The notes beneath the pieces were generated by a model. It was not told the origin of the DNA and made no database searches. It was given only the letters and a program-made list of their open reading frames with translations. A stretch of DNA of 64,000 nucleotides, from the NCBI RefSeq assembly GCF_003576245.1, contig NZ_QWGA01000006.1, positions 62,001 through 126,000 on the forward strand. Reading direction: 5' to 3'. The translations under genes were made by a program, and so were the position numbers. Source of the stretch: Henriciella algicola (GTDB lineage: Bacteria; Pseudomonadota; Alphaproteobacteria; Caulobacterales; Hyphomonadaceae). Shown here piece by piece: positions 7,600 to 17,464 of this stretch. Every line of letters starts with the position of its first letter. Positions within the stretch are counted from its first letter, which is position 1.

Positions 7600-7875
7600 T
7601 CATTCCGCTTCCCTGAGCCTCTGAACAAACGCGAAAAGTAAGGCGCAAAGAACCAGTCCGCTGACGATAGACCCAACCAGCGAGAAGACATTCATCAGCG
7701 TCGGCGCCAGTATGAAATGCAACAGCGATGGAACGTCGCAATCAGGAGCGTTGGCAGCTTCGCAGCCTAGTTTTTCTGCGGCGCTGGTCCGAACGGCAGA
7801 GCGTATGTTCAGGTATAGCGAGGCAACAATGCCGCTGCCCACAAACAGCCATGACCAAACCTTTTCTCTCTTCAA
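7600..7875 (-). CDS. Small two-helix membrane protein, unknown function
   Basis: This 91-residue protein was not recognised. It has an N-terminal helix (WSWLFVGSGIVASLYLNI), a central loop with two cysteines spaced for a possible disulfide (LGCEAANAPDCDVP), and a C-terminal helix. The only upstream start is TTG at 7873-7875, preceded by GCGGAGCGAG, which makes the start uncertain. It lies between a GST gene and a marR gene. Coding status is likely but not certain. Confidence 0.45.
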   Translation of the reverse strand: MKREKVWSWLFVGSGIVASLYLNIRSAVRTSAAEKLGCEAANAPDCDVPSLLHFILAPTLMNVFSLVGSIVSGLVLCALLFAFVQRLREAE

Positions 7876-12295: not shown

Positions 12296-13240
12296 TCAAG
12301 CACGTGTCGAAAATTGGGCAATGAATGCCTCATAGGAGGGCGTCGCCTGGGAAAAAATGAAGTCCGACTTGAGGATCGAGACAGAATTAACGCCGGATTC
12401 AGTGAGTTTCCGGGCATTTTCCACCGCTTTCCCGGATGGGCTGAGGAAGGAATTGGCCGAGACCTCTGTCAGGCCAAGCTCGGCGCGCAGTGATTCTTCG
12501 ACCTTTCCGCCCACGACGAGCAGGCTGGTCGCGTCTGCCGATTCGACCGCTTCGATCGAGGCGAGCAGTTTCTGAAGAACGTCTTTCGCCCCGCCAGACC
12601 AGTCTGCGCGAAGCGAACCAGCGAGGGCGGCGCGGCTTTTCAGGATCACGCCGTCATCGAGAACCTTGAGGCTGTTGGCCCGCAGGGTCGTGCCGGTCGA
12701 CGTTATGTCGACGATGACTTCAGCCTGACCGGAGGCCGGGGCGGCCTCTGTCGCGCCCGCGCTTTCAACAAGGCGATACTCACCCACTGACTTTTCAGAG
12801 AAGTAGTTTCGCGTGAGGCGAAGATACTTTGTGGCGACCTTCATGCGGCGGCCATGACGCTGTCGGAAACGGGCGCCAGCGGCCTCGAGGTCGGCCATCG
12901 TGTTTACATCGAGCCAGGCCGAAGGCACGGCAACGACCACATCGGCCCCGCCAAATTCCAGCCGCTTGATGACCGATGCATCGCGGGCAAGGTCAGCCGA
13001 GAGGTCATTGAGCAGGTCCTCACCGGTCACACCGATATGGAACGAGCCATCGATGAGGCCCTGCGCAATTTCACGCGCAGAGAGGAGCAGCACGTCGGCC
13101 TTGGGCAGGCCTTTCAGCTCTGCGGTGTAGCCACGGTCACCGCCGGACTGGCGCAGTTTGAAGCCAGCGCGAGCAAGCCAGTTTTCTGCGTTGTCCTTGA
13201 GGCGCCCCTTGGACGGGATAGCGAGTTTGAGCCGGGTCAT
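12296..13240 (-). CDS. hisG: ATP phosphoribosyltransferase catalytic subunit
   Basis: This 314-residue enzyme catalyses the first committed step of histidine synthesis: ATP + PRPP to phosphoribosyl-ATP. It shows LAIPSKGRL at the N-terminus, the IGVTGEDLL region, VATKYLRLTRNYF, and the PRPP-binding loop VDITSTGTTLRANSLKVLDDG. It is longer than the ~210-residue short form that needs HisZ, although hisZ is directly upstream. The extra C-terminal segment (residues ~215-314) does not obviously match the ACT-like domain of long HisG. Its start overlaps the hisZ stop by four bases (ATGA). Confidence 0.92.
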   Translation of the reverse strand: MTRLKLAIPSKGRLKDNAENWLARAGFKLRQSGGDRGYTAELKGLPKADVLLLSAREIAQGLIDGSFHIGVTGEDLLNDLSADLARDASVIKRLEFGGADVVVAVPSAWLDVNTMADLEAAGARFRQRHGRRMKVATKYLRLTRNYFSEKSVGEYRLVESAGATEAAPASGQAEVIVDITSTGTTLRANSLKVLDDGVILKSRAALAGSLRADWSGGAKDVLQKLLASIEAVESADATSLLVVGGKVEESLRAELGLTEVSANSFLSPSGKAVENARKLTESGVNSVSILKSDFIFSQATPSYEAFIAQFSTRA

Positions 13241-14337
13241 GCAGTGGCTCCTTTTGTCAGACGATCAGGGCGGACGACACCGCCAATGCCGGTCGCTTCG
13301 ACCTTCCCGCCTGAGAGGCGTGCCAGCAGCGTGTCATAGCGCCCCCCTGCCCCGAATGGGCGGCGGCCATCGGCTTGCCCCGGATGAAACAGCTCAAACA
13401 GGAAGCCATCATAATAGTTGAAGCGGCGACCGAATGGCGTGCCGAAGCGCGCATCGGTCATGAAGTCGGGCGCAAGCGCGCTCATGCGGTCGGTCCGCGT
13501 CTGCAGCCGGTCGAGGACCGGGTCGAGGCCTTCAAGGCCTGCCTGACGGGAGATTGCGAGCAGCTTGTCTGCCGCCTGCGCAGGCGGGCAGTTCACGGCC
13601 ATGACAGCCTCAAGCGTCTGGCGCGCTGTGTCGGGCGCCGCGCCATGTTCAGCGTCTGCGGCCTGCGCCAGAAGGCCTTCGACAATCTCATCGAGGGTGC
13701 GGTGGCCCTGAGGCTGAACACCGGCAAGCGCGAAGATGTCGGCGACGATGGCTTTCGCCTCATCCGGTCGCGCGCCCTTCAGGCGGGCGGCAAGGCCGTG
13801 GACGGGCTGAGAGCCGCCGGAGTTCAAAAGCGCGGATACACCGCCTGCCTGACGGAAGGCCCGCTTCAAGGCATCTGCAAGCCCCGGCGCAAGGCCGAGC
13901 GCATCGACGAAAGCCGGGAAGACGGCGAGGTCACCCATGCGCGCTTCGCAAGCTGCGACGCCAGCGGTGCCTGCTGCTTCGCAGACGAGCGCGAAGGTTT
14001 CGGCGTCGGTTTCTGCAGTGGACGGCGCGCCATAGCGTTCGAACCCGACTTGCGTAAACTCCAGTGCATCGCCTGCGACAGCTGGCAGGCGGAAGGCCCG
14101 CGCGGCATAGCGTTTGACCGTCTCGCCCCCCACGCCCTCTTCGGCCTGCGCCAATGCGACAGGCAAGGTGAGATCGGGGCGGAGGGCACATTCCTCGCCC
14201 AGCTCATTCACGAAGACGCAGAGGCGCGCGCGAACCGCTTCGCCCGAAAGCTCCAGCGGCTGGCTGGCGGGCATCACGATTGGCGGATCGACAATGTCGC
14301 CGCCAAGGCGGGAGAAGATGTCAGCTGGCGTACTCAT
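13237..14337 (-). CDS. hisZ: ATP phosphoribosyltransferase regulatory subunit
   Basis: This 366-residue protein is a class-II aminoacyl-tRNA-synthetase-like paralogue that allosterically controls HisG. It keeps the fold signatures (LRPDLTLPVA, the GR.FNYYDGF..ELF segment, GAGGRYDTLL) but has no tRNA-binding domain. It lies between hisS and hisG with 4-bp ATGA overlaps on both sides, so the three genes are translationally coupled. Together they link tRNA charging and the first biosynthetic step in one transcript behind a His-codon leader. Confidence 0.9.
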   Translation of the reverse strand: MSTPADIFSRLGGDIVDPPIVMPASQPLELSGEAVRARLCVFVNELGEECALRPDLTLPVALAQAEEGVGGETVKRYAARAFRLPAVAGDALEFTQVGFERYGAPSTAETDAETFALVCEAAGTAGVAACEARMGDLAVFPAFVDALGLAPGLADALKRAFRQAGGVSALLNSGGSQPVHGLAARLKGARPDEAKAIVADIFALAGVQPQGHRTLDEIVEGLLAQAADAEHGAAPDTARQTLEAVMAVNCPPAQAADKLLAISRQAGLEGLDPVLDRLQTRTDRMSALAPDFMTDARFGTPFGRRFNYYDGFLFELFHPGQADGRRPFGAGGRYDTLLARLSGGKVEATGIGGVVRPDRLTKGATA

Positions 14338-15824
14338 TCCGACGCCTCCACGATTTCGCGGATGCGGGCGACCATTTCGCTGCGCGGGGCTTCGAACTGG
14401 CCCGGGCGGGCTTCGCGGTATTCCTCATTGGACTTGATCGCGGCGGCCTGTTTGGCGCCCTCTTTCAGGTCCTTGATGGTGACGACGCCCTTGGCGATCT
14501 CATCCTCGCCGACCATGACCGCGACGGGCGCGCCGCGCCGGTCTGCGTATTTCATCTGAGGCCGCATGCCGGAGCTGCCCATATAGGCCTCAGCGCGGAT
14601 ACCTGCGGCGCGAAGCTCGGTCGCAAGTTTCAGCGCTTCGGTCGGATCGTCCCGGTTCATGTTGAGGATGACGACAGGGCCGTTCAGCGTCTCGATCTCA
14701 CCAGAGATGGCAAAAGCCGTCGCGAGGCGCGAGATGCCGACGGAGAAGCCCGTCGCCGGGACTTTCTCACCTGTGAAGCGGGCGACGAGGTCGTCATAGC
14801 GACCGCCGCCGCCGACAGAGCCGATGCGGACGGTGTTGCCATCCTCATCGACGGTCTCCCGCAGCAGCTCCGCCTCGAAGACGGGGCCGGTATAGTATTC
14901 AAGACCGCGCACGACGGACGGGTCGAACAGGACATCCGTATCCGGACAATTGAAGGCTTCGAGCCCGCGCGCAATTGCGGTGAGCTCGGCAAGACCTGCT
15001 TCAGCTTCTTCGCCCGTACCGACAGCGCGGCCGAGCGCTTCAAGCGTTTCGCCGCGTGTCGGGCGGCCCGCTTTTGCGAACGCCATCACGCGGTCAATCT
15101 CTGACGTGCCAAGCCCTGCGCCCTTGGTGAAGTCGCCGCTTTCGTCTTCGCGGCCCGGGCCGAGGAGGAGTTTAACGCCCTCTTCCCCAAGCCGGTCCAG
15201 CTTGTCGAGCGCGCGCAGGATTGTGAGGCGCGCTGTGTCACTATTCGCGCCGACGCCGTCGAGGACCGCATTGAGCAGGCGGCGCGTATTCACGCGGACG
15301 GCAAACTCGCCGTCGCCTGCGCCCGCCGCACGCATCGCCTCAGCCGCCATGGCGACCATTTCAGCATCCGCATGCGCGCCTGCCGCGCCAACCGTATCGG
15401 CGTCGCATTGCAGGAATTCACGGAAACGGCCGGGGCCCGGCTTTTCATTGCGCCAGACGGGCCCGGCCGCATAGCGGCGGAACGGCTTTGGCAGGGTCTG
15501 CCAGTTCTCAGCGGCAAATCGGGCAAGCGGCGCGGTCAGGTCATAGCGCAGCGAGATCCACTGCTCGTCATCATCCTGCATGGAGAAGACGCCCGCATTC
15601 GGGCGGTCATCGTCAGGCAGGAACTTGCCGAGGGCATCAGCATATTCCCACGCGCCAGTATCAAGTGCCTCGAACCCCCAGCGGCGATAGACCGACGTGA
15701 CCCGGTCAATCATCTCGGCCTGGGCATGGATCAGCGCCTCGCGGCGGTCAGGAAAACCGCGCGGCTTTCGCGCGAGGTCCTTGCCGCTTTTCGGGGCGTC
15801 GGCGTCCTGTTTCTTCTTGGCCAT
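14334..15824 (-). CDS. hisS: Histidyl-tRNA synthetase
   Basis: This 496-residue class-II synthetase charges tRNA-His. It shows motif 1 near GFEALDTGAWEYADAL, motif 2 GPVWRNEKPGPGRFREFLQCD, the His-A region VRGLEYYTGPVFE, motif 3 GFSVGISRL, and a C-terminal anticodon-binding domain (VVILNM.RD...A..LATELRAAGI). The motif 2 form (NEKPGPGRFR.F.Q.DADTVG) is the divergent alphaproteobacterial version that, from published work, accompanies loss of the G-1 identity base in tRNA-His. The ATG follows AGGACTAGCAA. It is the first structural gene of the operon, ~180 bp after the leader peptide stop. Confidence 0.94.
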   Translation of the reverse strand: MAKKKQDADAPKSGKDLARKPRGFPDRREALIHAQAEMIDRVTSVYRRWGFEALDTGAWEYADALGKFLPDDDRPNAGVFSMQDDDEQWISLRYDLTAPLARFAAENWQTLPKPFRRYAAGPVWRNEKPGPGRFREFLQCDADTVGAAGAHADAEMVAMAAEAMRAAGAGDGEFAVRVNTRRLLNAVLDGVGANSDTARLTILRALDKLDRLGEEGVKLLLGPGREDESGDFTKGAGLGTSEIDRVMAFAKAGRPTRGETLEALGRAVGTGEEAEAGLAELTAIARGLEAFNCPDTDVLFDPSVVRGLEYYTGPVFEAELLRETVDEDGNTVRIGSVGGGGRYDDLVARFTGEKVPATGFSVGISRLATAFAISGEIETLNGPVVILNMNRDDPTEALKLATELRAAGIRAEAYMGSSGMRPQMKYADRRGAPVAVMVGEDEIAKGVVTIKDLKEGAKQAAAIKSNEEYREARPGQFEAPRSEMVARIREIVEASE

Positions 15825-15968
15825 TTGCTAGTCCTGTCTGGTCGTGCGCGCTCCGCTTAGACGAAGCCGGGATAAGAGTGAAGCAGACGCGGGCAACAAG
15901 ACGCGGGACCGGAGCTATCCGTGTGCGGGCCTCTGGCGGTTCAATGTTAGAAGATGAACACTGTGAGA

Positions 15969-16006
15969 GAGGCGCAGCCGGACCGGTTCGCGCCTCATGC
16001 GGCGCG
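15969..16006 (-). promoter_or_regulatory. Candidate his attenuator: alternative hairpins after the leader peptide
   Basis: Directly after the leader stop the transcript can form CGCGCC (16001-16006) with GGCGCG (15989-15994). Alternatively it can form GAGGCGC (15990-15996) with GCGCCTC (15969-15975). The two helices share bases and exclude each other. The downstream helix is followed by a U-rich but interrupted tract (UCUCACAGUGUUCAUCUUCU), so it is not a textbook terminator. Confidence 0.5.
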
Positions 16007-16045
16007 TCACGCGTGGTGATGATGGTGATGCAGCGTCGTGTTCAT
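16007..16045 (-). CDS. hisL: his operon leader peptide with six consecutive His codons
   Basis: On the minus strand ATG at 16043-16045 opens a 12-codon frame reading M-N-T-T-L-H-H-H-H-H-H-A and a TGA stop. The six histidines are encoded by a mix of CAT and CAC, so they are not a simple DNA repeat. A run of His codons ahead of hisS-hisZ-hisG is the hallmark of ribosome-mediated attenuation, known for gamma-proteobacterial his operons. There is no clear Shine-Dalgarno. The promoter places the transcript start almost at the A of ATG, so it may be translated as a leaderless mRNA, as described for the trpL leader of Sinorhizobium. Confidence 0.75.
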   Translation of the reverse strand: MNTTLHHHHHHA

Positions 16046-16053
16046 TACCGGGC

Positions 16054-16082
16054 TGGATATGGAGCAGCCTGCGGGAAGTCAA
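16054..16082 (-). promoter_or_regulatory. Probable sigma-70-type promoter of the his operon
   Basis: On the minus strand TTGACT (16077-16082) and TATCCA (16054-16059) are separated by exactly 17 bp. Only eight bases separate the -10 from the leader ATG, so the expected start lies at or just before that ATG. The -35 begins just after the trkH stop region. Confidence 0.6.
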
Positions 16083-16090
16083 GCAGCCCG

Positions 16091-17464
16091 CTAGAAGAGA
16101 AGCTCATTGTCCTCTTCTTCTGCCCTCGTCTCATCATGCATGGCGATAGCGATACCGAATGTCAGGATGCCGACACGCCCGGCTGTCATCAGGACAATGA
16201 TGATGAGCTTTCCGAGTGAAGACAGATCACCCGTTATGCCCATGGACAGGCCAACCGTGCCAAGCGCCGAAATCACCTCAAACACGACGCGGTCAAAGGC
16301 AAATTGCGGGTCGGTCAGACCGAGCAGGAAGACGGCGATGGCGAGAAGCACAATGAAATACACTGCCGAAGCGCCGGCCGCCTGTAGGCGTGAGGCCGCA
16401 ATCGGGCGTTTGAAGAACCGCACACGGCTACGCTGTTTCAGCGTGGAGCGCATGATCGCCAGCAAGGCAGCGAAAGTGGTCGTCTTGAGGCCGCCGCCCG
16501 TACCAGACGGTGATGCACCAATGGCCATCAGCACGAAGAGAACCATGAGGACAGACATGGACAGGGCGCCGATGGGCACGGTGTTGAAGCCGACCGTCGT
16601 GGTTGCCGTCATCGTCTGGAAGAAAGCAGCGAGCAGACGCTCCGTCGGCTGCAGGGCTGCGATGCCCGGGTCGGCCACGAACAGGACGAGCGTGCCTATG
16701 AACAGGAAGGCCCCGGTGATGCGAAGGATCACCTTGGTGGTAAAACCGAGATGGAAGGCGGCAGAGGTAAAATTGCGCCAGACGTCATGGATAACCAGGA
16801 AGCCCATCGCACCAAGCAGGCTGAGAGCCGAGATCACGACATTCAGGCCGACATCGCCGCTATAGGCCTCAAAGCTGTTCGGATTCAGGCTGAAACCGGC
16901 TGTACAGAATGCAGAAACGGCATGGAAGATGGCGCTCCAGACAGCGTCTTCCTGACCTGCGCCCGCGAAGATGAAATAGAGCGCCAGCGCGCCGATCGCT
17001 TCGCAGACCAACGTAAAGATAACGACGGTGAGAATGAAATGGCCGGGCTTCAGATCCTTCGGAAGTGCGAAGGCGGCGCGCGCCATCTTCTCACGCAGCG
17101 GCGAGAGCTTGTGCGCCGTCGCCATGACCGCGAAAGACCCGATTGTCATGTATCCGACGCCGCCAACCTGGATCAGGAGGAGAATGATCAGCTCGCCGAA
17201 AAAGCTGTAATTCGAGCCGGGGTCCACCGTGACGAGGCCGGTCGTCGATACCGCTGAAACGGCGGTGAAGAAGTTGTCGATCGCCGCGACAGGGCCCTCA
17301 TGAGCGAAAGGCAGCGAAAGGAGCAGCCAGCCCGCCAGCATGTAGCCGACATATCCGACAACGAGGAGCTTGGCGGGATTGGTGCGGAGCATGGCAAGGC
17401 GCGTGCCCCGCCACAAATTGCTCAGAAACGATCGTTTTTTGCGACCGGACGTTTCTGTTGGCAT
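16091..17464 (-). CDS. TrkH/KtrB-family potassium uptake membrane subunit
   Basis: This 457-residue inner-membrane protein has four repeated helix-P-loop-helix units with selectivity-filter sequences at STTGLVT, FCTAGFSL, TTTVGFNT and GTVGLSM. This is the K+ channel-like architecture of TrkH/KtrB. Its length and lack of extra N-terminal helices suggest KtrB/TrkG-like proteins. They import K+ together with a cytosolic TrkA/KtrA ring protein, which is not encoded nearby. The ATG at 17462-17464 is preceded by GAGGGAGG some 14 bases upstream. A TTG at 17488 would add eight residues. Transcription may read toward the his promoter, as only a short gap separates them. Confidence 0.88.
   Translation of the reverse strand: MPTETSGRKKRSFLSNLWRGTRLAMLRTNPAKLLVVGYVGYMLAGWLLLSLPFAHEGPVAAIDNFFTAVSAVSTTGLVTVDPGSNYSFFGELIILLLIQVGGVGYMTIGSFAVMATAHKLSPLREKMARAAFALPKDLKPGHFILTVVIFTLVCEAIGALALYFIFAGAGQEDAVWSAIFHAVSAFCTAGFSLNPNSFEAYSGDVGLNVVISALSLLGAMGFLVIHDVWRNFTSAAFHLGFTTKVILRITGAFLFIGTLVLFVADPGIAALQPTERLLAAFFQTMTATTTVGFNTVPIGALSMSVLMVLFVLMAIGASPSGTGGGLKTTTFAALLAIMRSTLKQRSRVRFFKRPIAASRLQAAGASAVYFIVLLAIAVFLLGLTDPQFAFDRVVFEVISALGTVGLSMGITGDLSSLGKLIIIVLMTAGRVGILTFGIAIAMHDETRAEEEDNELLF

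Follow-up and report, generated by a model that had tools for sequence, protein, structure and literature searches.

A short reading frame rich in histidine codons, followed by competing RNA helices, precedes the hisS-hisZ-hisG genes on the minus strand of the window (the whole 64,000-nucleotide stretch of Henriciella algicola DNA analysed here), and together this mini-gene and its switchable fold very probably sense histidine supply. The element is probably a ribosome-dependent attenuator that reads the charging of His-tRNA, as judged from its anatomy and its comparison among relatives. The leader frame encodes MNTTLHHHHHHA (16007-16045, minus strand; ATG at 16045-16043, stop at 16009-16007) in 12 codons, six of them for His (ATG AAC ACG ACG CTG CAT CAC CAT CAT CAC CAC GCG TGA, i.e., M-N-T-T-L-His6-Ala). 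It lies about 180 nt 5' of hisS, coding for histidine--tRNA ligase (14334-15824; NCBIfam TIGR00442, above the curated cut-off; nearest named hisS that of Henriciella marina, 99% identity), and hisZ, for the ATP phosphoribosyltransferase regulatory subunit (13237-14337; NF008953 and others, all below their cut-offs), and hisG, for ATP phosphoribosyltransferase (12296-13240; NCBIfam TIGR00070, above the curated cut-off), follow on the same strand. A trkH-like gene (NCBIfam TIGR00933, below cut-off) flanks the leader region on its 5' side. A sequence-only reading had described the promoter, the 12-codon frame, the two helices and the three genes downstream; its coordinates and elements are right by sequence, and the gene assignments agree with the NCBIfam matches. 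Its further proposal, that the leader would control hisS jointly with hisZ and hisG, is supported by the comparison.

The frame is conserved among relatives. A search for hisS in the window's family gave a match in 98 of 105 genomes, and 97 loci were fetched with their upstream DNA, a partial match (G066) being left out. Upstream of hisS, 63 of these 97 loci have a short frame containing three or more His codons: 27 of the 28 from the window's genus (g1), 34 of 39 from g4, both from g9 and none of the 28 from six other genera. For L154, the g1 locus lacking the full frame, a two-His version is visible by eye (in L020). Typical leader peptides read MNTxLHHHHHHA/S and MKTxLHHHH..., and the 63 family leaders carry three to seven His codons each, with CAC used 179 times and CAT 161 times in 31 different strings. 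Among 40 leaders having His at positions 6-11, five of the six positions vary silently, while position 7 is always CAC. Such silent variation between CAC and CAT gives the leader the mark of a translated frame. An alignment showing a conserved poly-His frame with varying CAT/CAC use had been set as a check on the sequence-only reading, and these counts provide it, so that frame conservation together with silent His codon changes supports a His leader peptide. A chance or low-complexity stretch might be suggested by the shortness of the frame, its GC-rich surroundings and its absence from 34 of the 97 loci (among them L175, with just 218 nt of upstream DNA); however, its recurrence in the other 63 at a nearly fixed distance from the promoter, with silent codon changes, makes this origin exceedingly improbable, and it was rejected.

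The promoter-like site in front of the frame, P1, consists of a -35 element TTGACT (16077-16082, minus strand) and a -10 element TATCCA (16054-16059), separated by a 17-nt spacer and ending 8 nt 5' of the leader ATG. TTGAC is kept 35-39 nt 5' of the leader ATG in all 63 family leaders, whereas of the 716 remaining ATGs in these regions just 10 have it at that distance. Over the 62 distinct upstream sequences, the spacer of the best promoter match measures 17 nt in 58 and 15 nt in four, the distance from the end of the -10 element to the ATG ranges from 6 to 11 nt (8 nt in 34, 7 nt in 12), and a Shine-Dalgarno-like site (AGGA, GGAG or GAGG) occurs in none at the expected stretch. The constant presence of TTGAC at this distance and the absence of such a site suggest, as strongly as sequence permits, that the leader mRNA is very probably leaderless, its RNA starting at the ATG, and thus bear out the leaderless start predicted from the window alone. 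A strict scan of 15800-16150 for promoters and terminators, which detected neither, counts against the element.

Downstream of the frame, two mutually exclusive helices can be drawn from three short segments. Segment 2 (CGCGCC, 16001-16006) abuts the leader stop codon, segment 3 (GAGGCGCG, 15989-15996) is common to both helices, and segment 4 (GCGCCTC, 15969-15975) lies beyond it. Helix 2:3 (CGCGCC/GGCGCG, 16006-16001 with 15994-15989) is the presumed antiterminator and helix 3:4 (GAGGCGC/GCGCCTC, 15996-15990 with 15975-15969) the presumed terminator-like form. A third pairing, 1:5, joins segment 1 (AUGAACAC, 16038-16045), the eight bases at the 5' end of the leader RNA, to their complement, segment 5 (GUGUUCAU, 15961-15954), a few bases past segment 4. 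In an alignment (A1) of 57 of the 61 distinct family leaders (L158, L186, L190 and L196 being left out), the share of paired cells is 97.0% for helix 3:4, 99.7% for helix 2:3 and 89.7% for helix 1:5. Helix 2:3 is nearly invariant, with one double change. The structure combining 3:4 and 1:5 contains 16 double-change cells against a shuffled mean of 5.2, a value reached by none of 500 shuffles, and its covariation score exceeds that of every slid version. Two results count against the switch: in this structure the number of pairs showing double changes (3, against a shuffled mean of 2.8) is not in excess, and the single-sequence fold of the window RNA, taken without its first 3 nt, does not exceed shuffles in stability (z -0.96). 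Between 15990 and 15910, two additional pairings could serve as extra antiterminator helices: GUGUU with AACAU/GAAC immediately 3' of it, and GCCUC with a GAGGC located about 50 nt farther on.

A diverged leader precedes hisS in relatives belonging to Caulobacter and Phenylobacterium, its letters differing throughout but its plan being the same. The set comprises 22 of 32 loci (L049, L051-L081), chosen for a leader already seen; the ten loci outside it include L066 and L072, each with less than 40 nt of upstream DNA. Here a first helix joins GAGCCCCG to CGGGGCUC, and a second, of up to 12 bp, joins GCGGAYGGGGCU, a segment overlapping the first, to AGCYYCRUCCGU. Double-change cells across the 22 leaders number 8 versus 2.7 and 7 versus 1.6 for the two helices. 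The mutually exclusive helices of the sequence-only reading thus recur both in the family and in this set, and the compensatory changes by which it proposed to check them appear weakly for 2:3 in the family, where that helix hardly varies, and clearly in the Caulobacter/Phenylobacterium leaders. Co-variation in both sets indicates that two families preserve one plan of competing folds although their letters differ. The -10 element ends 8-12 nt 5' of the ATG in 20 of these 22 leaders, two having no match, so that a few extra 5' nucleotides are possible there.

The 1:5 pairing is new here, being absent from the account given by the sequence-only reading. At least seven contiguous pairs are found in 72% of the 61 distinct leaders and at least eight in 54%, compared with 1.7% and 0.4% for shuffled windows. 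The two partners also change together: leaders of one clade start with AUGAAAAC, and there segment 5 reads GUUUUCAU. Paired counts differ by clade, the AUGAACAC 5' ends (38 sequences) forming 7.1 bp with their own windows versus 4.9 with those of the other clade, and the AUGAAAAC 5' ends (10 sequences) 8.0 versus 4.5. Given this complementarity of the 5' end and its co-variation with segment 5, the start of the leader should be masked in the closed form, and we read the pairing as a lock that would conceal the 5' AUG as soon as that form is established.

Put together, these parts suggest the following sequence of events. Transcription from P1 would begin at or beside the A of the leader AUG, and a 70S ribosome would start on the bare RNA 5' end. 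When charged His-tRNA is scarce, the ribosome would stall on the six His codons; segment 2, left free, would pair with segment 3, segment 4 would stay open, and transcription would continue into hisS-hisZ-hisG. When His-tRNA is plentiful, the ribosome would reach the stop codon and cover segment 2, so that segments 3 and 4 could pair; once it has gone, the 5' end AUGAACAC would pair with GUGUUCAU, the start codon would be hidden and leader translation would end. The closed form would then lead to an early stop of transcription, either through a hairpin whose U-run is weak or in some other way. Masked folding is consistent with this order of events. When the mask represents a ribosome at the stop codon, 48 of 61 leaders fold into 3:4, 26 form 1:5 and none 2:3, which the mask itself forbids. 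A ribosome set on the first His codon gives 2:3 in only 32 of the 61 and leaves 3:4 in 21, two figures that count against the model, and the bare RNA gives 2:3 in 38 and 3:4 in 20. The direction of these predicted folds fits attenuation, while their energies do not decide.

Transcription could be stopped in more than one way. The scan finds no intrinsic terminator with a U-run in the window. In the best 8-nt window just after the stem, counted in 56 leaders (the stem was unplaced in 7 of 63), at most three T occur in 40, four in 4, five in 8 and six in 4, so that the poor U-tract remarked upon in the window is real for most leaders. Eleven of the 12 leaders with five or six T come from g1, nearly all of them from the AUGAAAAC clade, which carries GUUUUC. 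With the U-run absent from most leaders, Rho is a fair rival for termination: the leader may work via Rho-dependent termination or RNA decay, in that a fast ribosome would expose untranslated RNA and the 1:5 pairing would bar further ribosomes, letting Rho or a nuclease act. The pairing itself and the absence of an evident U-run past the 12-bp helix of the Caulobacter/Phenylobacterium set also speak for this route, but GUUUUC in the AUGAAAAC clade, where 5-6 of 8 nt close to the 3' side of the stem are T, is nearer to an intrinsic terminator, and we regard the Rho or decay route as possible but rather unlikely. For the preferred attenuator, what is found is a His-rich short frame, hisS, hisZ and hisG on the same strand, and mutually exclusive helices, one adjoining the stop codon. 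The element would work like an attenuator; strict membership of the trp/his type is not claimed, the U-run of that type being lacking.

A second promoter-like site, P2, lies just 5' of hisS (CTTCAC-16-TCTAAG, 15883-15856) within an inverted repeat GCTTCG-TCTAAG-CGGAGC (P2 feature as a whole, 15850-15883, minus strand). The arms of the repeat differ among relatives with their complementarity kept (GCTTCG/CGAAGC, GCACCG/CGGTGC, CTCCG/CGGAG), and the loop is similar (TCTAAG, TCTATG, ACTATG). Hairpins of at least six pairs are found in 17 of 28 g1 loci and 21 of 39 g4 loci, compared with 18% of shuffles. Loci without a His leader, both inside and outside the order, have a comparable site by eye. 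P2 would supply basal synthetase, which would explain how the leader can be lost.

In seven of the 97 family loci (L141, L143, L144, L145, L146, L152 and L155), ARAGORN identifies a tRNA-Gln(UUG) gene between the leader and hisS, with Rfam tRNA scores of 42.6 to 61.6 (cut-off 29). The gene is single in each genome and seen nowhere else: 9 of 299 genomes of the order are matched, corresponding to the seven loci and two weak matches to other tRNA-Gln genes, and the ordinary tRNA-Gln is located apart in 9 of 10 genomes tested. It is of phage type, resembling tRNA-Gln of Pseudomonas phages (about 77-78% over 69 of 74 bases), and its anticodon stem varies among relatives with pairing kept. An array of tRNA-Arg(ACG), tRNA-Asn, a tRNA with TTA anticodon and tRNA-Gln, as in mobile elements, was also observed in L232 (G253), its tRNA-Gln being distantly like that of the his operon. 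P2 starts a few bases past the tRNA-Gln CCA, and the tRNA must therefore be read from P1, barring an unseen promoter.

This arrangement bears on whether the leader acts on transcription at all. Were it to act instead on hisS translation or RNA stability, the weak U-run would be accounted for, as would the Caulobacter second helix, which ends just about 30-40 nt 5' of hisS. Against such action, the window has about 180 nt and the P2-like site between leader and hisS, inspection by eye showed no leader segment that pairs around the hisS start, and the tRNA gene intervening in seven relatives makes sense under transcriptional, less under translational, control; we consider control of translation or stability unlikely.

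The leaders of the tRNA-bearing loci are themselves distinctive, in that Gln codons occur in all seven (HHHHQQT, HHHHQHM, QQHHHHQHS, QQHHHHHS). In L150, an eighth leader with Gln is accompanied by a decayed tRNA, and the other 55 family leaders have neither Gln nor tRNA-Gln, L142 and L148 keeping apparent acceptor-stem remnants. On a hisS tree of 79 of the 97 loci (genera g3, g5 and g10 and L204 left out, stops shown as X), the tRNA and the Gln codons change three times each on the best tree, with two independent pairs of changes on starred branches and three on all, never in opposite directions. The hisS match of L140 (G044, a draft genome) has one internal TAG. A correlated-evolution test of tRNA versus Gln codons is not significant (median p 0.5, with only two to three independent changes), and three of the 22 Caulobacter/Phenylobacterium-type leaders (L058, L069, L073) contain Gln with no tRNA-Gln nearby, which goes against a link. 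These leaders, together with the few independent changes, keep the following proposal tentative and somewhat short of an even chance: leader codons would follow operon content, capture of the tRNA-Gln being followed by entry of Gln codons, which in one clade follow the His run and in another precede it, whereby stalling would also report a shortage of Gln-tRNA and raise the tRNA; decay of the tRNA would be followed by loss of Gln, and the paired 5' AUG would make for a single-use leader. If true, the leader would respond to a tRNA encoded within the very operon it controls. The tRNA-Gln loci represent a natural experiment in which leader codons and an operon tRNA gene appear to change together, making the tracking of tRNA supply, beside amino acid supply, directly testable.

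The element looks like a novelty of Caulobacterales. A covariance model of the family leaders, run with strict filters on 385 genomes of the class, gave two matches, both in the window's family; owing to these filters, the survey says little about diverged leaders. No comparable leader was seen in 20 hisS upstream regions from 19 genomes of the class (one of the same order), which contained three unrelated His-containing frames. An Rfam covariance search of 15000-17000 returned five matches up to E 5 and no leader family, and membership of a known Rfam leader (His_leader) or of the T-box was consequently rejected. The Rfam family CC3513, a Caulobacter sRNA, has no match in the window, while in L075 (3723-3892) and L079 (3717-3897), both on the minus strand, it covers the hisS leader in antisense only; this placement may represent a true antisense RNA or a strand error. 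L049, L063, L075 and L079 also contain another Caulobacter sRNA, CrfA, about 2.3 kb past hisS (near 7700-7830). The RNA could mainly act independently, as a small RNA or a small mRNA like rnTrpL of Sinorhizobium meliloti, with hisS chiefly driven by P2. The leaderless form resembling trpL (PMC7298713), the P2-like site and the coverage of the homologous Caulobacter leader by CC3513 point that way, the last on the opposite strand. However, the His codons and the pair of competing helices answer the needs of an attenuator, the element was seen only 5' of hisS in the fetched genomes, and each of the two genomes matched by the covariance model has a single match, so that a chiefly independent RNA appears very unlikely.

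A his leader attenuator is known 5' of the gamma-proteobacterial hisGDCB operons (Rfam His_leader). The element described here shares with it the run of His codons, the mutually exclusive helices and control by His-tRNA charging, but stands 5' of hisS-hisZ-hisG, is by prediction leaderless, has a poor U-run and gives no Rfam match. In the E. coli trp leader, a distal segment pairs with the ribosome-binding region of the leader; the 1:5 pairing follows the same logic, except that the bare 5' AUG itself is paired and the partners co-vary between clades. As with the T-box, a synthetase gene would be under control of the charging of its tRNA, whereas no T-box match is present and sensing would proceed via a translated leader.

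Among published leaders, the accessible part of PMC4833913 lists His leaders 5' of hisG in gamma-proteobacteria and 5' of hisZ in Clostridium and Bacillus, and does not list alpha-proteobacterial hisS. Naville and Gautheret (PMC2965389) report His leader peptides 5' of hisZ and of a hisS paralogue of bacilli, Caulobacter not being mentioned in their main text; those leaders likewise place His codons 5' of a hisZ or hisS-type gene, but belong to Firmicutes and are apparently unrelated in sequence. The trpL/rnTrpL attenuator of Sinorhizobium meliloti, as presented in PMC7298713 and PMC10117765, is also alpha-proteobacterial, with an RNA beginning at the leader ATG, as predicted here; in contrast, it has Trp codons and precedes trpE(G), and for the His leader a released RNA is hypothetical. 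For Caulobacter, PMC4117421 reports 375 leaderless mRNAs and leader frames 5' of trpS and ilvIH, hisS being absent from its main text. Within openly licensed papers, no description of a His leader 5' of an alpha-proteobacterial hisS was found.

In principle the element is ordinary, as it would work in the manner of a his or trp attenuator; new are its host genes, its probable leaderless form, its poor U-run, the proposed 5' lock and the possible link to a captured tRNA. If true, His-codon attenuation would extend to an alpha-proteobacterial operon joining hisS charging with the first histidine enzyme and its regulatory subunit, and an attenuator would be seen to operate on an mRNA that is leaderless and lacks a proper U-run. 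A relative of the element is present in Caulobacter crescentus, a standard laboratory organism.
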